Made by a program: the position numbers and the translations under genes. From Catenuloplanes atrovinosus (GTDB lineage: Bacteria; Actinomycetota; Actinomycetes; Mycobacteriales; Micromonosporaceae), in the NCBI RefSeq assembly GCF_031458235.1, contig NZ_JAVDYB010000001.1, positions 6,948,501-7,012,500 of the forward strand: a stretch of DNA of 64,000 bases, given 5' to 3'. A model generated the notes under the pieces. It did not search any database and had not been told where the DNA came from. It saw only the letters and a list, made by a program, of their open reading frames with translations. This document shows, one piece after another, positions 10,097 through 36,273 of the stretch. Every line of letters begins with the position of its first letter. Position 1 is the stretch's first letter.

Positions 10097-13000
10097 ATGG
10101 CCATTCGGACCTGGGGCAGGGTGCTGCTGACGTCACTCGGAGTGAGCCTCCTGGTCGGCGCCGGGCAGCTCGGCATCGCGTTCGGGTTCGGCGTCCTCCG
10201 CTTCGGCCGCGCGTTCTCGGACGGCATCGAGAACCAGTGGTACGCACAGCTCACCTGGATCGCCTGGTTCGCGATCGTCGCCGCCGTCACCGGTGCGCTG
10301 GTCGCGGACCGCGCCGCCCGCCGCCTCGGGCACGACGGCGGCCCGCCCGCGCTCGCCGGGCTGGCGCTCTGCTCGTCGCTCGGCGCGGCCGGGGTCGCGC
10401 TGATCACCATGCCGGCCGCGCGCACGGCCCAGCTCACCGACGGCACCGACCCGGCCGGCGCGGTCGCGGTCGCCGCGCTGATCGGCGCCGCCGCCGGCCT
10501 GCCGCTCGCCGCGCTGGTGCTCTGGCAGCGTGCGTACGCCTGGGCGGTCGGCTCGCTCGTGGCCGCGGCCTGGCTACTCGGCGCCGGCTCGGCCGTGGCC
10601 TCGTTCGGCACCGGCACCGACCTGCCAGCGGTCCGCCTCGGCGTCCTCGACCCGGCCGCGTTCAGCACCGGCGTCGTGCAGCGCCTCGCGGTCGTGGTGA
10701 TGCCGTCGCTCGCGCTGGTGGCCGGCGCCACGATCGGCGCGATCGCCCGCCGGCGCGACCGGCACACCGCGATCGTGGCCACGTCCGGCCTGCTCGCGCC
10801 GGCGCCGCTGGCGATCGCCTACCTCGCCGCCGGGCCGGGCGGCGCGACCGACGCGTACCAGGCGGCGCCGTTCTGGGGCTCGCTGGTCGCGCTGGCCGCG
10901 GGCATGCTGGGCTCGCTGCTCGCCGTGATCGCCCACCACACCGCCACCCAAAATCCAAATCACACCCCTCCGCCGGTACGTGGGGAGCTCACCGCCGCAC
11001 CGGCGGCCCCACCGGGCAGCCCCTCCCCCGGCGACGCCGACTCGGACGGCCCGGACACCGCCGGTAAGCCGGACACCGCCGGTAGGGAGGCTCCGGCGGT
11101 GACGCCGGACGAGATCCTCGGCCCGGTTCCGGGGACGCGCGACACGGCTGGGACCTCGGCGGATCCGCTTGATCCCGGCACTCCGATAAGCTCCATCGGC
11201 TCGATCGGTACGGACAAACCGGTCAGCACAGGAAAACCGGCCACCTCGGGGGACCCAGACCACGCGGAAACGAAGGATGATGATCCACTCAGCAGGGAAT
11301 CTCACAACTCCCGGGATTCCGAGCCGATTACCTTGATCTCTCCGACACTGGATGACGTGTTGTCTCCCAAGGAACGCGAAACGCAGGAAGAGGGCGGGAG
11401 CGACATGTTCACCCCCGAGACGAACAGCGGCGATCCCCAGCGGCACCCGTCCCCCTGGGACGACGCGGACCCGGGCCAGGAGCCCGACGGCCTGGACGAC
11501 GCCTCCGCCTGGGCGGAGGCCGCCTCGCATCGCCCGAGCGGCCGCAGCGGTCTCGCCGACATCGAGGAGCCGCCGCCCGCGCTGGGCGCGCTCCGCGAGC
11601 CGACCGGCGCGTTCCGCCAGGCGAACTGGTCCGCCGCCTTCGGCGCCAACCAGCCGTGGGAACTCGACCAGGCCGAACGCGAACCCACCCCGTTCGAGCT
11701 CGCCGAACGCGCCCGCCGCGCCGAGGCCGACCGCGCCCTGGCCGCCGGCTCCGCACGCCCCGGCGACGACGAGGCCCAGGCTTCCCCGTCCGCCTGGGAC
11801 CGGACGCCGGCCGAGCCGCGCGAATCCCGCCCGGAACGGGACGACGCGGACCGCGACGACGGCCCGGCCGAGGCCGGACGGACGATCACGATGGACTTCG
11901 GGGCCCCCGCGGACCAGGATTCCGAGGGTGGCGGCCTGGACACCCGGCTCGGCCCGTCCGGGCTGCGCGCCGAGTTCGCGGCCGGCATCCGCGCCGGATC
12001 CGAGCACACCACCGACCTACCCGGCGCCCCGGCCATCCTGCCCCCGCCCGCCCCCGGCCCGCCGCCGCCACTCCCCCCGGCCGCGAACCGCCCCGCACCG
12101 GCCCCCGAGACCCCCGCCGCCAACGCGCCGACCTCGGGCGCGCCGATCTCCGGCGCGCCGGTCTCCGCCACCCCCGTCTCCAGCGCTCCAATCTCCGGCG
12201 CCCCTGATTCCAGCGCTCCGATCTCCGGCGGGCCGATCTCCAGCCCTGCTGCCCCCGGCATGCCGGCCTCCAGCACGCCGGCCTCCAGCACGCCGACCTC
12301 CGGCACCCCGATCTCCAGCCCTGCCGCCCCCGGCACGCCGATCCCCAGCACGCCAACCTCCGGCGGGCCGATCTCCAGCCCTGCCGCCCCCGGCACGCCG
12401 ATCCCCAGCGCGCCGACCTCCGGCGCCCCGGTTTCCACCGTGCCCGGCGCCCAGGTCTTCGGCGTCCAGATCCCCGACACGCAGATCTCCGGCGCTCCGG
12501 CCCCCGACGCTCCGACTTCCGGCACGCCGGTCTCCGGCAGCCCGGTTCCCGGCGTCCCCGTGCCGGGCCGACCGGTCCCGTCCTCGGATGCGCCGGCGGC
12601 GGGCGACTGGATGCCGGCGGGGCAGGCACGGGGTGGTCCGGCCGACGCCGCGCCTCCGGCACCGCCCGCGGCCGCGGCAGCCCCCTCCTACCCGGCCGAT
12701 ACGACGCCGACGGGGGACGCCGGTGCCGTGTTCGTGCCGGAGCCGGCGCGTGCGGTGCCGATGATCGAGCCGGAGTTCCGCGTCATTCCGCCTGACCCGC
12801 CCGCCGATGACTCGCCCACGGTCGCATCGCCCGTGCGGTCGGCTCCGGACGCACCGGCGGACCGGGGGCTCGGTGAGCGCCTGGCCGAGGTCCGGACCGG
12901 CGAGCCCGGCGACTTCTTCGCGCCGCACCAGCAGCCCGGTCCCCCGCAGGCCGTGGCGGCGCAGGGGGACGTCTGGTCCGGCACCGGCGAGCCCGAGCGG

Positions 13001-15049
13001 CGCGCTGATCAGCCGAGCGGGCCCGGTACCTCCGGTCCCGGTGACGGCTGGGCCGCCCGTCCGGAAGAACACGGTCGCGAGGAGAGCCGGTCCCCACGTC
13101 CCGAGCAGGGCCGCGAGGAGGCCGGCCGCCCGGAGGCGACCGAGGGTGCGGCGGCGACGCCGGCGTACCCGGCACGGGTCTTTCCCCGGATCTTCGAGCC
13201 GGTGGAGCCGCCGGCCGAGATGCCCTCGCTGTTCGAGTCGACGAAGCCGGCCACGCCGGCACCGTCCCTCTTCGAGCCGGTCCGGCAGCGGCTCACCGAG
13301 CCCCCGGCCGAGCAGCCCACGCCTCGCCCGGCCGACGGCCGGCAGACGAGCGGCCCATCCGGCGCCGAGACGGTCCCGCCCCGGCCCGGGGACGGCGCGC
13401 GCGCCGACTCCGGCACGCCGTGGCCGGCTGACACCGCCGGTGGCCCGGCGTCCGCGGCACTCCCCGCCGCCACGCCGCCGCGGGAGCCGTCGTCCCTGCC
13501 CCGGTTCGCGGTGAGCCGGCCGGAGAACAGCTCGGTCGCCGGCTCGTTCCCGGAGCGGTTCGCTTCCGGTCCGGCGGCGGGCGACGCCGCACCGAGGCCG
13601 GACGCCCGGCCCTCGAACACCACCGCCGGCACCGCCGACCAGGGCACCCCTGTCCCGCCGCGGTTCCCGGCATCCCCGCCGAGCCCGGCCGCGACCGACC
13701 CGGCCGGCTCCGCCGCGCCGTGGACCGGCGGCGACACCGCGCAGCCACACGCCCCCGGTCCCGCCGCACCGTGGACCGCCGCGACCGGCGGCGACACCGC
13801 ACAGTCGCACCCCGCCGATCCCGCCGCGCCCTGGACCGCCGCGACCGGCGGCGACACCGCACAGCCACACGCCGCCGATCCCGCCGCACCCTGGACCGCC
13901 GCGACCGGCGGCGACACCGCACAGCCACACGCCGCCGATCCCGCCGCACCCTGGACCGCCGCGACCGGCGGCGACACCGCGCAGCCACACGCCCCCGGTC
14001 CCGCCGCACCGTGGACCGCCGCGACCGGCGGCGGCACCGCGCAGTCGCACCCCGCCGGGGACAGCGAGGACCGCGCGCAGGCCGCGCCGTGGACCTCCGG
14101 TTCGCCCGGGGCCGGCACCGCCGAGCAGCCGGCTGCCGGCGACCCGTCACGGTGGGAGACCACCGGTCAGCAGCCCGTTCCGCCGGGCGCCTTCGGTGGC
14201 GAGGCCCCGTGGGAGACCGGTCCCGGCCTCGCCCGGCAGCCGGCGCCGGCGCGCCCGGTGGAAGCGTTCGAGGGCGACGGCCCTGCTCCGTGGGAGGCCG
14301 GCGCCGGGCAGACGCCGCGCTTCCTGGCCGGTGCCGACGACGGCAGCATGCAGCCGCACTTCCCCGCGCCGTGGCCCGCCGATCCCACGACGGCCGGACC
14401 TGCGGCGGGGCCGGCCCCGTCGCACTTCCCGGCGAGCACCGCGGACGGCTTCCCCGCGCCCGGAGCCGACGTCTCCCGGGCGGCCGGAGCGGCGCGCCGG
14501 GACGACCCGATCGGCGCGCCCAGCAGCGGAAACACCGGTACCGAGCCGGTGCACGAGGGTGTCGTGCTGCCCCCGCGGGAAGTACGCCAGGAACCTCGCC
14601 AGGAGCCTCGCCAGGAGTCACGTCCCGCGCGCAGCCCCTGGGCGGCCGGTGACTCCTGGGCCGCGGACGACGCCTGGTCCGTCACCGACGACTGGACGCC
14701 GACCGCACCGGCCGCCGGCGCCCGTCCCGACCGCCCGGCACGCGACGACGGGTGGTCCGCGCCGGAGGAGCCGGCGAGCACCTGGTCCGCGCGCCCGTCC
14801 GAGCCCTGGAACGCGGACCCGCCCTACCCGGCCGGCGCCACGCCGCAGCCGCCCCCGCCCGCCCCGGCTCCGGAGGCGCCCGCCGAGCCGGATCCGGAGC
14901 CGCAGGCCGCGAAGCCGGAGAAGCGCCGCCGGGGCCTGTTCCGGCGGCGCAACCAGCCGGCGCAGCCGCCCGCGGCCGAGGCGGTCCCGCTGCGGGACGA
15001 GGAGTACGTGGACTGGGTCAGCGGCCTCGGCGACCGCTCGTCCGAATAG
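10097..15049 (+). CDS. Giant multi-pass membrane protein with repeat-rich disordered tail
   Basis: A 1650-residue protein I do not recognise. Residues ~1-275 contain about eight hydrophobic helices. The rest (~1,370 residues) is low-complexity, rich in Pro, Ala, Gly, Asp and Glu. Two repeat tracts stand out: a (S/T)GxP-type pentapeptide tract (DNA 12121-12560) and 5.5 copies of a 20-residue unit containing GGDTAQPHA and PAAPWTAAT (13727-14058). The C-terminus is different: a basic patch (KRRRGLFRRRNQ) then an acidic-aromatic end (DEEYVDWVSGLG), which looks like a functional peptide. The ATG at 10097 is chosen because the frame upstream is antisense-like noise inside the LLM gene; TAACGT (10084-10089) lies seven bases before it, suggesting a leaderless mRNA. 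An internal ATG at 11405 is in the same frame. Confidence 0.75.
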   Translation: MAIRTWGRVLLTSLGVSLLVGAGQLGIAFGFGVLRFGRAFSDGIENQWYAQLTWIAWFAIVAAVTGALVADRAARRLGHDGGPPALAGLALCSSLGAAGVALITMPAARTAQLTDGTDPAGAVAVAALIGAAAGLPLAALVLWQRAYAWAVGSLVAAAWLLGAGSAVASFGTGTDLPAVRLGVLDPAAFSTGVVQRLAVVVMPSLALVAGATIGAIARRRDRHTAIVATSGLLAPAPLAIAYLAAGPGGATDAYQAAPFWGSLVALAAGMLGSLLAVIAHHTATQNPNHTPPPVRGELTAAPAAPPGSPSPGDADSDGPDTAGKPDTAGREAPAVTPDEILGPVPGTRDTAGTSADPLDPGTPISSIGSIGTDKPVSTGKPATSGDPDHAETKDDDPLSRESHNSRDSEPITLISPTLDDVLSPKERETQEEGGSDMFTPETNSGDPQRHPSPWDDADPGQEPDGLDDASAWAEAASHRPSGRSGLADIEEPPPALGALREPTGAFRQANWSAAFGANQPWELDQAEREPTPFELAERARRAEADRALAAGSARPGDDEAQASPSAWDRTPAEPRESRPERDDADRDDGPAEAGRTITMDFGAPADQDSEGGGLDTRLGPSGLRAEFAAGIRAGSEHTTDLPGAPAILPPPAPGPPPPLPPAANRPAPAPETPAANAPTSGAPISGAPVSATPVSSAPISGAPDSSAPISGGPISSPAAPGMPASSTPASSTPTSGTPISSPAAPGTPIPSTPTSGGPISSPAAPGTPIPSAPTSGAPVSTVPGAQVFGVQIPDTQISGAPAPDAPTSGTPVSGSPVPGVPVPGRPVPSSDAPAAGDWMPAGQARGGPADAAPPAPPAAAAAPSYPADTTPTGDAGAVFVPEPARAVPMIEPEFRVIPPDPPADDSPTVASPVRSAPDAPADRGLGERLAEVRTGEPGDFFAPHQQPGPPQAVAAQGDVWSGTGEPERRADQPSGPGTSGPGDGWAARPEEHGREESRSPRPEQGREEAGRPEATEGAAATPAYPARVFPRIFEPVEPPAEMPSLFESTKPATPAPSLFEPVRQRLTEPPAEQPTPRPADGRQTSGPSGAETVPPRPGDGARADSGTPWPADTAGGPASAALPAATPPREPSSLPRFAVSRPENSSVAGSFPERFASGPAAGDAAPRPDARPSNTTAGTADQGTPVPPRFPASPPSPAATDPAGSAAPWTGGDTAQPHAPGPAAPWTAATGGDTAQSHPADPAAPWTAATGGDTAQPHAADPAAPWTAATGGDTAQPHAADPAAPWTAATGGDTAQPHAPGPAAPWTAATGGGTAQSHPAGDSEDRAQAAPWTSGSPGAGTAEQPAAGDPSRWETTGQQPVPPGAFGGEAPWETGPGLARQPAPARPVEAFEGDGPAPWEAGAGQTPRFLAGADDGSMQPHFPAPWPADPTTAGPAAGPAPSHFPASTADGFPAPGADVSRAAGAARRDDPIGAPSSGNTGTEPVHEGVVLPPREVRQEPRQEPRQESRPARSPWAAGDSWAADDAWSVTDDWTPTAPAAGARPDRPARDDGWSAPEEPASTWSARPSEPWNADPPYPAGATPQPPPPAPAPEAPAEPDPEPQAAKPEKRRRGLFRRRNQPAQPPAAEAVPLRDEEYVDWVSGLGDRSSE
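12121..12560 (+). repeat. Degenerate short tandem repeats encoding an S/T-G-x-P tract
   Basis: Imperfect 15-18 bp repeats within the giant membrane-protein gene encode units such as TSGAP, ISGAP and ISSPAAPG. The frame is kept throughout. Nearly every unit contains Pro, which predicts an extended, possibly glycosylated stalk. Confidence 0.75.
13727..14058 (+). repeat. 60-bp in-frame tandem repeat (5.5 copies)
   Basis: Five 60-bp units start at 13727, 13787, 13847, 13907 and 13967, with a partial sixth. Two neighbouring units are identical at the protein level; the others differ mainly at HAPG, HPAD or HAAD. The near-identity implies recent expansion by slippage or recombination. Each unit encodes 20 residues and ends in PWTAAT. 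Confidence 0.93.
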
Positions 15050-24488: not shown

Positions 24489-27400
24489 ATGGCGTACGGG
24501 CAGCATGGCGGAGCGGACGACGGTCGCCCGCCCGCGGAACACGAACCCCGCTCACGCCGTGCCGCGACCCCACCCAGCGGCGGCTGGCCCGCCCTCGACA
24601 CCCCCGGCCCCGACGTCAAGCTCTGGGACGCCGACCGCGCCGCCCCACCCCGCCGCTCCCGCCCCGCCGACCGGGCTCCCGCACTCGACGACCCCACCGC
24701 CTCCGGCGGCCGCCGCCGCGCCCCGGAAACCCCGGCGGGCCGCCGCACCGCACCGTCCGCGCCGGGCCGCGGCGCCGCACCGTCCGCGGGCGCCGCACCG
24801 GCCGCGCCGGGCCACCGCGCCACGCCGGACGCCGTGGCGATGCCGGTTCCAGACCGGACAGGCACGCCCGCGGCGCCGGGCCGCCGGGCCGCGCCGACGC
24901 CGGCACTCGACCGCGCGGGCACGCCCACGGCACCGGGCCGCCGAGCCGCACCCGACGCCGTGGCGCCGCCGGTCCCCGGCGCACAGGCCGCCGTGGACGA
25001 CGCGGCAGCGCTCATCCAGCGGGCGACCGCGGGCGACAGCCTCAGCGGACGCCGCGCAGCCCCGGAGGAACCCGTCGCCACGGGTCGCCGCGCCGCTCCG
25101 GCGGAACCCGCCGTCAGTGGCCGCCGCGCCCGCGTCGAAGATCCGGCGACGCCGGGCCGACGAGCCGCCGACGAGCCACCCAGCGGTGCCCCGCGGGCCG
25201 GTACGGATGGCACACAGCCAGGTGGAGCCCGGCCCGCCGTGCCGCACGCCACGACACCAGGTGGCGCTCGACGAGCTGCGGCGGACGACCCGGCACTCGG
25301 CGCCGTGCGACGCACCCCGGTTGACCCCGAGGGACCCGGCGGCACCCGACGAGCGGCGGCGGACGAGGTGCCACCCGCTGCGGGCCGCCGGGCCGCAGCG
25401 GACGACCCGGCACTCGGCGCCGTGCGACGCACCCCGGCTGACGCCGAGGGACCCGGCGGCGCCCGACGAGCCGCAGCGGACGAGGTGCCGCCCGGCGCGG
25501 GCCGCCGGGCCGCAGCGGATGGCGCGCCGGCAGGTCGCAGAGCTGCACCGGAGGGCGCGGCCTGGTCCTCGCCCCCGCTCGGACGCCGCGCGCCTGCGGA
25601 GGAGCCCGGGCCGAGAGGCCGCCGCGCTGCTCCGGAACCCGAATCACCGGCCACCGGCCGGCGGGCCGCCGAGAACCCGGCCGCCCGGGGACGAGCGCCC
25701 GACGCCCCGGCGACCGCACGGCGGGCCGCCGACGGGCCGGCGGCGAGCGACGCCTGGAAGATCACTCCGGAACCGCCCGGCACCGGTCGACGCGCCGCAC
25801 CCGACGAGACCCCCGCCCGGCGCCGCGCCGATGGCGAGGGTCCCGGTGGGCCCCGAGTCCCGGCGGGGAGCGGATCCACGGCACCGGACGCGCCGCCCGG
25901 CGGCCGGCGGCGGGCGGCCGAGGGCGCCGAGGCCTCGGGATCGTGGCAGCTCTCCGGCGAGCCGGGCCGCCGAGCGGCACCGGACGCGGGCCATGCACGC
26001 TCCACGACCGCCCGCGAGACGGCCGCCCGCGAGACGGCCGCCCGCGAAGCCACCGCCCGCGACACGGCCGCCCGCGACACGGCCGCCCACGACACGGCCG
26101 CCCACGACACGGCCGCCCGCGAGACGGCCGCCAGGGAAGCGGCCGGCGGTCGACGGCGAGCGATGGACGATCCCGGCCAGCGAGGCGAGACGCCCGAGCG
26201 ATCCGGCGGCCACCGGATGGTGCCGGACCGGCTCGGCCCGCCCGCGTTCGCCGGACCGGAGGCACCGGCCGGCCGCCGGCCGGCCCGCGAGCCGGGCGCG
26301 AGCGGCTCCCACGCGCTGCCCGAGCCGACGACCCCGCCGCGCCGCGCCGCTGCCGAAGCAGCGAGCGAGCCGGCCCCCGGCAGCCGGACGGCATTCCCGC
26401 CGCGTGCGGACCAGCGCCGGCACACGGACACCGGACACCCGGACGCCGACCCCGCGCGTCGGGCGGCCACCGGGCCTGGACGCCGGGACACGGACGCCGG
26501 GCGCCACGACACGGACACCGGCGGCCTCGGACGGCGCAGAGCCGCTGACGCCCCCGGCCACCGCCCGGCCGCCGGCACCGATCCCGCCGCGGCGGGCATG
26601 CCGCCGGCCTGGTCGACGCCCCCCAGCCGGCCGGTGCCGCCCGGCCCGGTCTCCGAGGCGCCGCCCGGAGCCGGACGACCGCCGACGGCACGAGGCGCCG
26701 ACACCGCGGCCCGCGCCGCGATGCCGGACCGGTCCGGCATCGTCCGAGGCGGTGCGGCCGTTCCCGAGCCGGACACGGGCGGCCTGGCCGCGCGCGGCCG
26801 CATCCCCGGCCCGGCCGCCGCCGGCGGTCCACCGGCCGGCCACGACACCGGTCCCGGCCGCGGCGACACCCCGCCACCCCCGATGCGCGGCCCCGACCGC
26901 CAGGGCCACGACCCGCGCGGACGCTTCTCCTCCGCGCACGATCGGGACCCGTCCGGCGACGTGATGGCCCCCCGCGACCGAGGACCCTGGAGCAGCCCGC
27001 CCGCCGACGCCGGACAGCAGGGCGCCGATCCCCGGCGGGGTGGAGGCCGGGCCGCGATCCCGGCGCAGGTCCCGCACGAGACCGCCGGCCCGCCGAGCGC
27101 CCGTGCCGCCGCGACACCACCGGCCGGTGACGCCCGGACCCCGGGTGCACGAGACCACGGCCCCGCACGACCGCCGCAGGGCCCGGCCGGCCGCGTCCCA
27201 TCCGGCACCGGACCCTCCGGCGGCAACCCCACGGTTTCCGGCGGTGCGTCCGCCGCCGTACCGGCCCGTGGCGGCGCCCAGGTCCCCGGCAACGCCCCAG
27301 TCTCCGGCGGCGCGGCCATCCCGCCCGCGCGTGGCGGCGCCCAGGTCCCCGGCACCGCCCCCGTCTCCGGCGGCGCGGCCGTCCCACCCGGCCGCGGCGG

Positions 27401-28604
27401 CGCCCAGGTCCCCGGCCGCGCCCAGCAGCCCGGCCGGGCATCCGCCGCCGTCCGCCGCCAAGGTCCCCCGCCGGCCCGCCCCGACACCTCAGGGGCCATT
27501 CCGCTGGGTCCGGAGAGTTCCGGCGGCCACCGGACGGGTCCCGACGCGTCGGGAGCCCTTCGGCTGAGCCCGGACACCTCCGGCGTCTACCGGCCCGACC
27601 GGCAGCCCGGGAGCGCCGCCGGACAGCGACACCCCGACGCCTCGGGCGCGCACCGCACCGGCAACCCGCCCGTGGCCGCGCAGCGGCACCCCGGCCCGGA
27701 CGACGCGCCCGGACCTCGCACGGCCGCCGCCCGGGTCACGCCGCCGGACGCCGCCGGTCACGGCGCCGGCGCCGCCGGCACCTCGCTGGCCCAGCGCCCG
27801 CCGAGCACCGTCGCGCGGATCACGCCGGCCCCCGCCGTACCGTCGCAGCCCGAGGCTCCCGAGGCGGAGACCGACAGGGCCGCGCCGGCCGAGGCGCGGC
27901 AGAAGCCCTGGCAGGTACTGGTCGGGGTGCTCGCCGCGCTGGTCCTGGTCGGGGTGTGCGGGCTGAGCTCGTTCTTCATCCTGGCGGACGAGCAGAGCGG
28001 CCGGGACGCGCAGGCCTCCGGCGGCAATCCGGAGGCGACCGCGCAGGCCCGGGACATCAGCTCGCGCGGCGTGGACGGCGAGCCGCTCACCACGAACGAG
28101 GTCTTCCCGGCCGGCACGATCGCGATCACGTCGCAGGAGCCGCCGTACACGGTGCTCAAGACCGAGCAGCTGGACGACTGCGGCAAGGCCGCGGCCGGCG
28201 AGATCCCGCAGCTGCTCAAGGACCTGGGCTGCAACCAGGTGGTACGCGGCACCATGCGCTCCCCCGACTCCGGCTACCTGGTCACGGCCGGGGTGTTCAA
28301 CCTGGAGGACGAGACCGGCGCGAAGTGGGCGCACGAGCAGATCAAGGCGATGGTCGACGGGCAGAAGGGCCGTTTCTCCGGCATGCGCGCGGGCGCGGGC
28401 ACCGAGCCGGTGGAGGAGTCGTCCGCGCAGGTCGGGTGGAACATCCGCGGTCACTTCCTGGCGTACTGCGTGATCGCCCGCGCGGACGGTGAGAAGATCA
28501 TCGACGGTGACCCGCAGGCCCGGCAGATCCTCTACGACATGGTGGAGCTGCACCTGCGCAACGGCGTGCTGGAGAAGCGCGCCACCCAGCCCACTACGAG
28601 CTGA
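24489..28604 (+). CDS. Giant proline/alanine/arginine-rich single-pass membrane protein
   Basis: A 1371-residue protein I do not recognise. Residues 1 to ~1135 are disordered and cytoplasmic by prediction, built from repeats of GRRAAP, RRAAADD and similar units. A single helix (about 1140-1166, VLVGVLAALVLVGVCGLSS) follows. The outer domain of ~205 residues (TIAITSQEPPYTVLKTEQLDD onward) looks folded and contains three Cys (DDCGK, LGCNQ and AYC). A type II topology with the basic disordered part inside is expected. The start ATG 24489 has no ribosome site but sits seven bases after TACCCT. The gene ends convergent with truA, overlapping it by 11 bp. The outer domain may be the conserved functional part; no family is assigned. 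Confidence 0.75.
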   Translation: MAYGQHGGADDGRPPAEHEPRSRRAATPPSGGWPALDTPGPDVKLWDADRAAPPRRSRPADRAPALDDPTASGGRRRAPETPAGRRTAPSAPGRGAAPSAGAAPAAPGHRATPDAVAMPVPDRTGTPAAPGRRAAPTPALDRAGTPTAPGRRAAPDAVAPPVPGAQAAVDDAAALIQRATAGDSLSGRRAAPEEPVATGRRAAPAEPAVSGRRARVEDPATPGRRAADEPPSGAPRAGTDGTQPGGARPAVPHATTPGGARRAAADDPALGAVRRTPVDPEGPGGTRRAAADEVPPAAGRRAAADDPALGAVRRTPADAEGPGGARRAAADEVPPGAGRRAAADGAPAGRRAAPEGAAWSSPPLGRRAPAEEPGPRGRRAAPEPESPATGRRAAENPAARGRAPDAPATARRAADGPAASDAWKITPEPPGTGRRAAPDETPARRRADGEGPGGPRVPAGSGSTAPDAPPGGRRRAAEGAEASGSWQLSGEPGRRAAPDAGHARSTTARETAARETAAREATARDTAARDTAAHDTAAHDTAARETAAREAAGGRRRAMDDPGQRGETPERSGGHRMVPDRLGPPAFAGPEAPAGRRPAREPGASGSHALPEPTTPPRRAAAEAASEPAPGSRTAFPPRADQRRHTDTGHPDADPARRAATGPGRRDTDAGRHDTDTGGLGRRRAADAPGHRPAAGTDPAAAGMPPAWSTPPSRPVPPGPVSEAPPGAGRPPTARGADTAARAAMPDRSGIVRGGAAVPEPDTGGLAARGRIPGPAAAGGPPAGHDTGPGRGDTPPPPMRGPDRQGHDPRGRFSSAHDRDPSGDVMAPRDRGPWSSPPADAGQQGADPRRGGGRAAIPAQVPHETAGPPSARAAATPPAGDARTPGARDHGPARPPQGPAGRVPSGTGPSGGNPTVSGGASAAVPARGGAQVPGNAPVSGGAAIPPARGGAQVPGTAPVSGGAAVPPGRGGAQVPGRAQQPGRASAAVRRQGPPPARPDTSGAIPLGPESSGGHRTGPDASGALRLSPDTSGVYRPDRQPGSAAGQRHPDASGAHRTGNPPVAAQRHPGPDDAPGPRTAAARVTPPDAAGHGAGAAGTSLAQRPPSTVARITPAPAVPSQPEAPEAETDRAAPAEARQKPWQVLVGVLAALVLVGVCGLSSFFILADEQSGRDAQASGGNPEATAQARDISSRGVDGEPLTTNEVFPAGTIAITSQEPPYTVLKTEQLDDCGKAAAGEIPQLLKDLGCNQVVRGTMRSPDSGYLVTAGVFNLEDETGAKWAHEQIKAMVDGQKGRFSGMRAGAGTEPVEESSAQVGWNIRGHFLAYCVIARADGEKIIDGDPQARQILYDMVELHLRNGVLEKRATQPTTS
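25269..25502 (+). repeat. 117-bp tandem duplication (2 copies) within the giant gene
   Basis: Copies at 25269-25385 and 25386-25502 encode 39 residues each, starting RRAAADDPALGAVRRTP. They differ at only a few positions, so the duplication is recent. Confidence 0.9.
26010..26144 (+). repeat. 15-bp tandem repeat (9 units)
   Basis: Nine 15-bp units (consensus GCCCGCGAGACGGCC) encode an ARETA/ARDTA/AHDTA pentapeptide run. The frame is preserved and it may form a charged helix or coil. Confidence 0.9.
27267..27413 (+). repeat. 63-bp tandem repeat (about 2.3 copies)
   Basis: Units begin at 27267, 27330 and 27393 and encode RGGAQVPGTAPVSGGAAVPP-type peptides. A third in-frame repeat class in the same gene. 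Confidence 0.85.
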
Positions 28605-32979: not shown

Positions 32980-33089
32980 GGTGCGCCTTTGCTGTTCATC
33001 CGTGTCCCCGGCACGACGAAGCGCCGCCCGGTGAGGCACGGGTGACGGACACAGGAAATCCCGCCCCGTCGATCAGTTAGCGGTGGGCC

Positions 33090-33311
33090 CTACTTGTACC
33101 GATAGACGATGCGCCCACGGGTGAGATCGTATGGAGATAGCTCCACGACGACCCGGTCCTCGGGCAAAATACGGATGTAGTGCTGCCGCATCTTGCCACT
33201 GATGTGAGCCAGCACCTTGTGACCGTTGGCGAGCTCCACCCTGAACATGGCGTTCGGCAGTGGCTCGATCACTCGGCCTTCGATCTCGATGGCTCCGTCT
33301 TTCTTCGGCAT
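33090..33311 (-). CDS. infA: Translation initiation factor IF-1
   Basis: A 73-residue S1/OB-fold factor that binds the ribosomal A site during initiation. The sequence [44 protein letters not shown] and [12 protein letters not shown] is a textbook match. ATG 33311; GGAGG lies just two bases before it, with a second AGG further up. The conserved r-protein leader element (33510-33529) lies ~200 nt upstream. Confidence 0.99.
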
Positions 33312-33464
33312 GTCCTCCGCTACCTGACATTCGGTTATGGGACGCGCACACAACGCCGCTCGCAAGACGTGCTCATGATGATTCGCCTCGCGCCAGCCGC
33401 GGCTCCGCCACGCCATCGAAGCGCTGATGGACATGACGGAAGGGACGCTGTGCGCCAATCAACG

Positions 33465-33494
33465 AGTGTACGCCGCGCATTACATCGACACCAA
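33465..33494 (-). promoter_or_regulatory. Candidate infA promoter
   Basis: On the minus strand TTGGTG (33494-33489) and TACACT (33470-33465) are 18 bp apart. The predicted start near 33458 gives a ~147-nt leader for infA. It lies downstream of the conserved leader element, so that element would be transcribed only from further upstream. Confidence 0.4.
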
Positions 33495-33509
33495 ACCGAG
33501 GTCACGCAA

Positions 33510-33529
33510 CCCGCGGTCGGGTGTGTCGC
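33510..33529 (-). promoter_or_regulatory. Conserved r-protein leader element, infA copy
   Basis: The minus strand reads GCGACACACCCGACCGCGGG, one mismatch from the copies upstream of rpsJ and rpsL. Here CGACC can pair with the following GGTTG through one G-U wobble, so the hairpin seen in the other copies is kept despite the sequence change. It lies between the DUF1707 gene and infA. Confidence 0.7.
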
Positions 33530-33561
33530 TGCCCGCCGAAAACCGGACGGACGTGCCTAAA

Positions 33562-34092
33562 TCACTCGTCGTGGTCGTCGCGCTCGGCCTCGATCGCCTT
33601 CTTCCGCGCCTGCTTCGCCGCCCACCGCTGCGGCTCACCGGTCGCCAGCCCCGCCACGGTGGAGATCACCAGGACCGTCCCCCAGGTGCCGGCCACCCAG
33701 CCCGGCCAGAACGCGCTCGGCCAGTCACCGTTCGCCACCGCCGGGAAGCCCCAGACGGCCAGCAGAACGCCCATCACGCCGAGGAACGGCGCCCAGTTCT
33801 CCACCAGCCAGCGCCGGGTCGCGTCCTCGTACCGCCCGTCCGCCCCGATCGGCCACTCCGGCACGCCCGCCGGCACCACGGCGCCCGCCGCCGGCACCGC
33901 GAGCCCCTGCCGCTCCGCCGGCAGATCGGTCAGCAGCCCGTCCAACTCACCGTAGGTCTTCGCCGCGTAGGCCCGCCCGAGCCGCTCGTCGAACTCCGCC
34001 AGATCCAGCCGGCCCTCGTTGAGCGCGGTACGCAGCCGATCCGCGACCGCCTCGCGGTCCGCGTCGGCCGCACGCATCTCCTCGCGCCCCAT
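33562..34092 (-). CDS. DUF1707 domain-containing membrane protein
   Basis: A 176-residue protein with an N-terminal DUF1707 (SHOCT-like) domain: MRAADADREAVADRLRTALNEGRLDLAEFDERLGRAYAAKTYGELDGLLTDLP. A linker and two hydrophobic helices (FLGVMGVLLAVWGFPAV and VAGTWGTVLVISTVAGLA) follow, then a basic/acidic tail. Such proteins are common in actinomycetes; function unknown. The ATG at 34092 is chosen because TTGATT-N17-CATGCT ends seven bases before it, a leaderless arrangement; longer starts (34104 or further) are possible. It interrupts the usual map-infA adjacency. Confidence 0.8.
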   Translation of the reverse strand: MGREEMRAADADREAVADRLRTALNEGRLDLAEFDERLGRAYAAKTYGELDGLLTDLPAERQGLAVPAAGAVVPAGVPEWPIGADGRYEDATRRWLVENWAPFLGVMGVLLAVWGFPAVANGDWPSAFWPGWVAGTWGTVLVISTVAGLATGEPQRWAAKQARKKAIEAERDDHDE

Positions 34093-34099
34093 GCGTACC

Positions 34100-34128
34100 A
34101 GCATGGCACCGCCGAACACCCCAATCAA
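34100..34128 (-). promoter_or_regulatory. Leaderless-type promoter of the DUF1707 gene
   Basis: On the minus strand TTGATT (34128-34123) and CATGCT (34105-34100) are 17 bp apart, with the -10 ending seven bases before the ATG at 34092. Confidence 0.45.
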
Positions 34129-34375
34129 GATCATCAGTGGGTACGTCCGGGCACCGCCCCCGGCCCTCCCAGGACCCACCCGGCCCCCGCCGCCCAGACC
34201 CCCGGCGACCGGAGCCGCCGCGGCCCAGCCCGCGGCGCGCCGCCGGTTCATGCACCCACTCACCACCGCCACCGCCCGCCTCGCCACACCAGCCGGCGAC
34301 CCCGGGTAGCACTGAAACTGCCTACATAGTGATCCGGGCCGGTGGGGAAAGGAACGGCCGACCACCTCGGCCGGC

Positions 34376-34681
34376 GCGGAAGGCGACCAGCCCTACGGTC
34401 CCGGCCAGTGCGGGGAGCAACCAGCCCTACAGCCCCAGCCAGTGCGGAAGGCGACCAGCCTTACGGTCCCGGCCAGTGCGCAAAGCAACCAGCCCTACAG
34501 CCCCAGCCAGTGCACAAAGCAACCAGCCCTACAGCCCCAGCCAGTGCGGGGAGCAACCAGCCCTACAGCCCCAGCCAGTGCAGAAGGAGACCAGCCCTAT
34601 GGTCCCGGCCAGTGCGGGAAGCAACCGGCCCTACAGCCCCAGCCAGTGCGCAAAGCGACCAGCCCTACAGCCCCGGCCAGT
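34376..34681. repeat. 34-bp tandem repeat array (9 units), non-coding
   Basis: Nine consecutive units of exactly 34 bp, starting at 34376 and every 34 bp to 34648, with a degenerate tenth. The unit runs GCGGGGAGCAACCAGCCC then TACAGCCCCAGCCAGT. Two variants occur: an A type with CTACAGCCCCAG and a B type with CTACGGTCCCGG (units 1, 3 and 7); unit 9 is intermediate. Because 34 is not a multiple of three the frame shifts at each unit, so it is not a protein repeat. It lies between the map stop (34720) and the DUF1707 promoter. There are no spacers, so it is not a CRISPR array. Apart from the array and the DUF1707 promoter, the 34093-34719 gap shows nothing recognisable. Confidence 0.95.
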
Positions 34682-34719
34682 GCGGCGAGCGGGCGGCACC
34701 GGATGCCGGCCTGGCGGGG

Positions 34720-35565
34720 TCAGCTGGCCGGGGCGGGCTGACGGGAGGTGACCAGGTCGCCGAGACGTTCGCGACCGCCGTCGAAGGCGGTCAGCACCCA
34801 GATGCCGTCCTCCAGCAGCGCCATCGAGTGCTCGACGTGCGCGGCCACCGACCGGTCCTTGGTGATCACCGTCCAGCCGTCGGACAGCTCCACCGACTTC
34901 GGCGAGCCGAGCGTGATCATCGGCTCGATCGCCAGGCACAGCCCGTTCGTCAGCGAGATGCCGCGGCCCGGCCGGCCATAGTTGAGCACGTGCGGGTCCT
35001 GGTGCATCTCCGTGCCGATGCCGTGCCCGCCGTACCCCTCGACGATGCCGTAACGGCCGCCGGCGCGCACCGCGCGCTCCACCGCGTAGGAGATGTCAGA
35101 CAGCTTGCCCCGCCCGGAGGCCGCGCCGCGCGCCGCCGCGGCCAGACCGGCCCACATCGCGTCCTCCGCGACCGCGGCCATCTTCGCCAGTTCCGGCCGC
35201 ACCTCGCCGACCGCGACCGTGATGGCCGAGTCGCCGTGCCAGCCGTCCAGTACCGCGCCGCAGTCGATCGAGATCAGGTCGCCCTCCTGGAGCACCTGCT
35301 TCTCCGAGGGGATCGCGTGCACGATCTGCTCGTTGACGGAGGAGCAGATCGTCGCCGGGTAGCCGTGGTATCCCTTGAAGGACGGCACGGCCCCGGCGTC
35401 CCGGATGACCGATTCGGCGATCGCGTCGAGGTCCGCGGTGGAGACGCCGGGCGCGACCGCCTGTCGCATCCGCTCCAGGGCCTCCGCCACGACGAGCCCG
35501 GCGGCCCGCATCTTGACTATCTGTTCCGTGGTCTTCAGCTGAATCTTCAGCTGCTGGCGGCGCAT
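34720..35565 (-). CDS. map: Type I methionine aminopeptidase
   Basis: A 281-residue enzyme that removes the initiator Met from nascent proteins. All five metal ligands are present: Asp101 (SIDCG), Asp112 (HGDSA), His181 (GHGIG), Glu214 (AIEPM) and Glu245 (HVEHS). There is no N-terminal zinc-finger extension. ATG 35565 with AGAGGG upstream. It follows adk by 54 bp in the secY-adk-map unit. Confidence 0.98.
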   Translation of the reverse strand: MRRQQLKIQLKTTEQIVKMRAAGLVVAEALERMRQAVAPGVSTADLDAIAESVIRDAGAVPSFKGYHGYPATICSSVNEQIVHAIPSEKQVLQEGDLISIDCGAVLDGWHGDSAITVAVGEVRPELAKMAAVAEDAMWAGLAAAARGAASGRGKLSDISYAVERAVRAGGRYGIVEGYGGHGIGTEMHQDPHVLNYGRPGRGISLTNGLCLAIEPMITLGSPKSVELSDGWTVITKDRSVAAHVEHSMALLEDGIWVLTAFDGGRERLGDLVTSRQPAPAS

Positions 35566-35619
35566 GTGCGTACCCTCTGACTCTCGTGCACGTGTCGGCG
35601 GCGCCCTGGGCGAGCCGGG

Positions 35620-36273
35620 TCAGCCGCCGTAGGACCGCAGCGCGTCGATCGCGCGGACCGTGACGTCCTCGACCGGCCCGGTGGCGTCGATCCCGACCAG
35701 CTTGCCCTGGGCACCGTAGTAGTCGACCAGCGGAGCGGTGTCCCGGGCGTAGACCCGCAGCCTCTCCGCGATCGTCTCGGCCTTGTCGTCGTCGCGCTGG
35801 AACAGCTCGCCGCCGCACCGGTCGCAGATGTCCTCCCCCGACGGCGGGTCGAACTCCACGTGCCAGATCTTGCCGCAGCCGCGACAGGTGCGCCGGCCGG
35901 AGAGCCGCCGGATCACCTCGTCGTCGTCGACGACCAGCTCCAGCACGATGTCCAGCGCGGTGCCCAGGTCGGCGAGCAGCTTGTCCAGCGCGTTCGCCTG
36001 GGGCGTGGTACGCGGGAACCCGTCCAGCAGGAAGCCGTCCGTCGAGTCCGGCTCGGCCAGCCGCTCCCGGACCATGTTGATCGTGACCTCGTCGGGAACC
36101 AGCTGGCCGGCGTCCATGTAGCGCTTCGCCTCGACGCCGAGCGGCGTGCCCTGAGCCACGTTCGCCCGGAAGATGTCACCGGTCGAGATCTTCGGCACGG
36201 CCAGGTGGGCGGCGATGAACTCGGCCTGGGTCCCTTTACCCGCCCCCGGGGGACCAACCAGTACGAGTCTCAC
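35620..36273 (-). CDS. adk: Adenylate kinase (zinc-lid form)
   Basis: A 217-residue kinase interconverting ATP, AMP and ADP. The P-loop is GPPGAGKGT (7-15) and the NMP-binding segment is [19 protein letters not shown]. The long LID domain carries a four-Cys zinc site (Cys130, Cys133, Cys150, Cys153). 37 bp after secY, standard order. Confidence 0.99.

Follow-up and report, generated by a model that had tools for sequence, protein, structure and literature searches.

A nine-unit 34-bp tandem array in the spacer after map of Catenuloplanes atrovinosus, most likely a lineage-specific non-coding minisatellite

Introduction

Does a strictly regular tandem repeat lying just downstream of map, in the neighborhood of infA, serve a function there, or is it a by-product of DNA duplication in a spacer? 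The question is raised by a 34-bp repeat in the 8.9 Mb, one-contig genome of Catenuloplanes atrovinosus (73% GC in an 800-kb sample), which lies within the 64,000-nucleotide stretch of DNA analysed here (the window). A previous reading of this stretch from its letters and open reading frames (the sequence-only reading) called the repeat a clean minisatellite between map and infA, and proposed that it could be a recombination hotspot, a protein-binding array or a processed RNA. No paper on this locus was among the literature matches listed.

Results

Structure of the array

The repeat occupies positions 34376-34681 of the window as a gapless array of nine 34-bp units arranged head to tail without indels. 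The sequence-only reading was accurate in its coordinates and in its description of nine units with two interleaved variants and no spacers, and since contiguous head-to-tail units of tens of bases are what constitutes a minisatellite, that name was well chosen. Eight of the nine units have distinct sequences, and 13 of the 34 unit positions are variable, the departures from the consensus being 27 transitions and 4 transversions. Variants A and B, which change together at unit positions 10, 22, 24 and 28, occupy the first eight units in the order A B A B B B A B, and the ninth is a mixture of the two. Units 2 and 6 have the same sequence, and a single base separates unit 1 from unit 3 and unit 4 from unit 5. 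Self-identity of the array is 0.81 at a lag of 34, 0.87 at a lag of 68 and 0.90 at a lag of 136, and TRF scores it 403, 483 and 461 at periods of 34, 68 and 102, in rows that stop at 34685 or 34690. This periodicity is far above chance expectation: the best lag (20-60) over 1000 mononucleotide shuffles of the array gave a maximum identity of 0.42, versus 0.81 observed, and the highest value among 3000 random 306-mers drawn from the genome sample was 0.78. The left flank together with unit 1 (34330-34417) matches units 7-9 at 77%; alone and ungapped, the flank agrees with the units at 14-18 of 34 positions.

Genomic setting

The order is map, array, DUF1707 gene, infA, and all three genes are on the minus strand. 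The features of the locus are as follows:

34720-35565, minus strand: map (Peptidase_M24), whose stop codon is 38 bp ahead of the array
34682..34690, no strand: incomplete tenth unit of 4-9 bp, beyond which resemblance to the unit is lost (TRF and unit comparison)
34376..34681, no strand: tandem array with two interleaved variants (sequence reading and TRF)
34355..34375, minus strand: terminator-like hairpin with a T-rich tail, immediately beyond the array when read in the sense of map (weak)
34093..34267, minus strand: upstream block of the DUF1707 gene (alignment with congeners)
33562-34092, minus strand: DUF1707 gene, with the ATG at 34092 taken as its probable start
33090..33311, minus strand: infA (eIF-1a/IF-1 family; domain match)

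The earlier placement of the array between map and infA is thus loosely true, but the DUF1707 gene intervenes, and the array sits in the map-DUF1707 spacer, where it ends about 280 bp from the DUF1707 start. The three genes stand in this order in all five genomes of the genus that were compared (C. atrovinosus and four congeners). A search for the DUF1707 protein in 41 genomes (this one, the four congeners, 20 others of the family and 16 of the order) found a match in 32; four of the 20 other family genomes gave no match. Thirty loci were kept, at most one per genome, in stretches of 2.2-3.7 kb. Map is near DUF1707 in 17 of them, with infA also present in 13 of the 17, and at one more locus DUF1707 is accompanied by infA but not by map. 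As judged from gene order, map and infA are already apart in the genus and in several family relatives, a statement that covers less than the whole family.

On the minus strand, window positions 34092-34135 read TTGATT, 17 nt, CATGCT, 7 nt and ATG, and the congeners have a similar block (with 18 nt in G002). By eye this looks like a putative promoter of a leaderless DUF1707 gene; a consensus promoter scan of the region lists no promoter. If the gene is leaderless, starting with the ATG at 34092, the 267-aa ORF would be over-long.

The spacer after map in related genomes

The spacer was compared at 12 of the 17 map-DUF1707 loci (this genome, the four congeners and seven other family genomes). 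From the map stop to a DUF1707 start chosen by script (in C. atrovinosus 12 nt ahead of the ATG at 34092) it measures 615 bp here, 392, 224, 546 and 303 bp in the congeners and 33-334 bp in the seven others. Subtracting the 306-bp array leaves 309 bp, which is inside the congener range. Alignment with the congeners covers the final 103-164 bp of the C. atrovinosus spacer in all four cases (longest aligned stretch 34104-34267), and G002 has two further, shorter matches at spacer positions 435-492; at E 1e-3 nothing in the spacer beyond this final block and the two G002 matches aligned with any of the four congeners. The array, at spacer positions 39-344, lies outside the aligned block.

In three congeners, G002, G003 and G004, the spot of the array is occupied by a long hairpin just after map (L003:2360-2403, L010:1347-1386 and L004:2204-2279). 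Its arms vary by species yet, by eye, stay largely complementary, and it is perhaps the map terminator. The exact hairpin pattern of G002 and G003 is found at one place in each of them and is absent from the other three genomes, including G004, which has different arms. No long hairpin after map was found in C. atrovinosus or in the fourth congener, G001. The latter has neither hairpin nor array, which counts against reading the array as a stand-in for the terminator. A scan of the 2-kb region for terminator-like elements returned two overlapping rows versus 0.7 (sd 0.9) expected, a weak result. Among the five species of the genus compared, the spacer after map varies in both length and content.

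Distribution of the unit

The sequence-only reading had suggested searching the rest of the genome for the unit, whose presence at many loci would make it an ordinary dispersed repeat. With up to three mismatches allowed, the unit pattern has nine matches in the genome, which are the nine units themselves (the backwards pattern, used as a control, gave two), and a search with the whole array matched one place. The dispersed-element reading is rejected by this restriction to a single locus. A 39-bp match found elsewhere in the genome is to 34702-34738, outside the array.

The array had no match in any of the four congener genomes, and their syntenic spacers, read directly, contain no array; TRF gave 0, 1, 0 and 1 rows on the congener stretches L003, L004, L005 and L010, both rows being inside the DUF1707 match. 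A search of 354 genomes of the family, with two candidates scored per genome, gave weak matches in eight genomes other than this one (E 2.9e-6 to 9.4e-4, 25-97 bp, 71-96% identity). Those at L044, L046, L047 and L050 sit in other repeats with periods of 6-72, that at L049 overlaps a row of two 24-bp copies, and those at L045, L048 and L051 have no repeat there. The L046 repeat has a period of 31-32 bp, about 3.5 units and a different consensus, and is judged unrelated to the 34-bp array. An exact search with the unit core, from which the C. atrovinosus genome was possibly omitted, gave a single match at each of five loci, of which one is in Plantactinospora. Neither map, DUF1707 nor infA was seen within the stretches examined at the eight weak-match and five exact-pattern loci, and a frame around each of these matches runs without a stop for 234 codons or more, which is weak coding evidence in GC-rich DNA. 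A homologous array in these family relatives was rejected on the ground that the matches are weak and non-syntenic. Viral contigs (searched by exact pattern only) and plasmids and phages (searched by BLAST with low-complexity filtering) gave no match, a weak negative.

Coding potential, RNA structure and binding-site features

The plus strand is free of stop codons from 34342 to 34710, which bears out the earlier remark that it stays open in spite of a unit length that is not a multiple of three. The companion remark, that the other strand has a TAG in every unit, holds for eight of the nine units; the remaining one has a TAA. Such openness is what chance predicts and is not unusual: when closed into rings, shuffled units lack stops on a given strand in 57.5% of cases, and random 34-mers from the window in 60.4%. 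The array lies outside the flanking genes, its 34-bp period is not a multiple of three and its GC content at the three codon positions is flat (0.73, 0.65 and 0.70), from which we infer that it is non-coding.

The processed RNA that had been proposed is argued against by two observations. An Rfam search of 33000-36000 gave no match up to E 1, and the array folds less stably than its dinucleotide shuffles (z +2.98 and +3.69 for the two strands, with no shuffle out of 100 less stable on either), so neither an Rfam match nor a fold beyond that of shuffles marks it as a structured RNA. The proposed protein-binding array likewise found no support, as no single unit contains an inverted repeat of at least 10 nt and the clustering of variable positions is weak. 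Seven of the 13 variable positions fall in one 8-position window (p 0.043), unit positions 3-10 varying more than 11-34, and the longest invariant run in the unit is unremarkable (p 0.19), where both tests assume independent positions. Unit 9 and the end of map carry the two arms of an 11-nt inverted repeat, 43 nt apart.

The map-sense strand of the array is G-rich. By absolute G4Hunter score the array ranks within the top 2.1% of 306-mers from the genome, and its GC skew is reached by 6% of them. A G-quadruplex reading was rejected: the map-sense strand carries nine two-tier motifs, an ordinary count that 49% of 3000 genome 306-mers equal on one strand, and three-tier motifs are absent from the array.

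Frequency of similar arrays in the genome

Arrays whose best period is not divisible by three were counted as the best row per overlapping cluster, with a score of at least 150 and at least 2.5 copies. There are 12 in 800 kb of the C. atrovinosus genome, distributed over 10 of 40 stretches, where "non-coding" rests on the period for all 12. The same rule gives, per 400 kb, 6 in G003, 4 in G004 (a sample that includes 5000 N), 2 in G002 and 2 in G007, which belongs to another genus. Scores of at least 250 are reached by 10 of the 12 arrays here versus 2, 1, 0 and 0 in G003, G004, G002 and G007. Four of the 12 are longer than the map-spacer array, and nine are surrounded by a stop-free frame of at least 178 codons, as the map-spacer array is. 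Under the same rule, periods that are multiples of three account for 11 rows in C. atrovinosus and for 8, 12, 6 and 7 in G003, G004, G002 and G007. Such arrays are a general trait of this genome and nothing peculiar to map, and because they are common in it, one array near core genes is no sign of function.

Long arrays with such periods are frequent in the C. atrovinosus sample; they include L085:934-1466, L060:8366-8815, L061:3777-4387 and L063:10022-10304, among others, with periods of 85, 86, 134 and 19. In these small samples, long arrays with periods that are not multiples of three are equally dense in G003 and rarer in G002 and G007. By eye, a GCCCGCATGCTC-CGCGGGC-like motif recurs in the units of L060:8366-8815 (period 86) and L075:578-775 (period 79), which would fit two separate amplifications of one dispersed palindromic element. 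The window itself has several tandem repeats with multiple-of-three periods (15, 60, 63, 117) at 12110-14057 and 25281-27593, perhaps inside coding sequence.

Discussion

Origin and possible function

The array is very probably a lineage-specific, non-coding minisatellite in the 3' spacer of map that grew by slippage or exchange and is most likely without a selected function. It would have begun with the duplication of 34 bp in the spacer past the map stop, where constraint is loose, and would have reached nine units as blocks of one, two and four units were added by slippage during replication or by unequal exchange. The self-identity at lags of 68 and 136 and the near-identical unit pairs are the pattern expected from such block duplication, and this higher-order pattern makes recombination and copy-number change at the array plausible. 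It would at most extend the 3' untranslated region of map, and it would have persisted because it interrupts neither gene and is placed outside the block shared with the congeners, well short of the DUF1707 start.

Could the array instead modulate expression through its length, with the number of units altering either how much transcription from map runs on into DUF1707 and infA or where the map mRNA ends and how stable it is? We regard this as improbable. The M. tuberculosis rnc-fpg1 repeat, whose length tracks fpg1 mRNA (PMC2734929), is a precedent, the array is at the hairpin position of three congeners with a terminator-like hairpin directly after it, the map-sense strand is G-rich, variable positions cluster weakly and unit 9 can pair with the end of map, features with which a transcriptional role would be compatible; however, DUF1707 has its own conserved upstream block, all four congeners lack the array, G001 does without both hairpin and array, the G-quadruplex motif count is ordinary and the terminator-like match is weak. 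The more specific proposal that the G-rich array stands in for a hairpin terminator that was lost, acting as a tunable element of 3'-end formation or attenuation, its unit number setting read-through into DUF1707 and infA, seems less probable still; array growth between map and its terminator, or a role in terminator change, is compatible with the positions seen.

The remaining explanations carry little weight. That the array is a protein-binding site, for example for replication or segregation proteins, is very unlikely: its units are regularly spaced and positions 11-34 vary less than 3-10, but it lacks inverted repeats of 10 nt or longer within the unit, occupies one genomic locus, is missing from the congeners and has an ordinary invariant run. 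We give hardly any credence to the idea that the plus strand holds a gene or encodes a repeat peptide. ORFs of 204 and 412 aa span the array on that strand, and the exact unit-core matches in five other genomes are in long stop-free frames, where by eye one frame of the core can be read as QPYGPGQ-like; against this, the openness is expected by chance, the 34-bp unit shifts the reading frame at every repeat, codon-position GC is flat and the genome has no second copy of the unit. Equally remote is an assembly artefact of copy number, to which tandem arrays are prone, as nearly all of the units are distinct and the genome is one contig, for which reads spanning 306 bp are assumed. On the minisatellite explanation, the array is of little importance beyond a possible use as a strain-typing marker.

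Comparison with known systems

The array may be compared, by description and not by sequence, with the repeat in the rnc-fpg1 spacer of the M. tuberculosis complex. As reported in PMC2734929, that spacer is 279-358 bp long, contains 37-bp repeats (VNTR3239/ETR-F) and varies among strains, and the rnc-fpg1 spacers of the other mycobacteria tabulated there are 54 bp or less and repeat-free. Both repeats are in the spacer of co-directional genes, have units of similar size (37 and 34 bp) and begin at a similar distance past the upstream stop (40 bp there, 38 bp here). The rnc-fpg1 repeats differ in reaching the fpg1 start and in varying by strain (PMC2734929), whereas the map-spacer array stops well before DUF1707. 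The MIRU elements of mycobacteria are also short tandem units between genes, but they form a family whose 40-100-bp units are spread over 41 loci in a single genome (PMC2734929), unlike the 34-bp unit here, whose nine matches are all at one locus. A CRISPR array resembles it in regular spacing only, since there are no unique spacers between these repeats.

A survey of prokaryotic satellites reports few satellites in most species, with species of Streptomyces, Amycolatopsis and Mycobacterium among those that have 20 or more, and describes long-unit satellites as mainly multiples of three (PMC6749651). Like the unique satellites of that survey, the array is head-to-tail, has a unit of more than 30 nt and is unrelated to other arrays; its period is not a multiple of three, the criterion for non-coding satellites given there, which places it in a minority among long-unit satellites (PMC6749651). 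The map-spacer array is probably one more, and probably neutral, example of an already known kind of repeat, the non-coding minisatellite.
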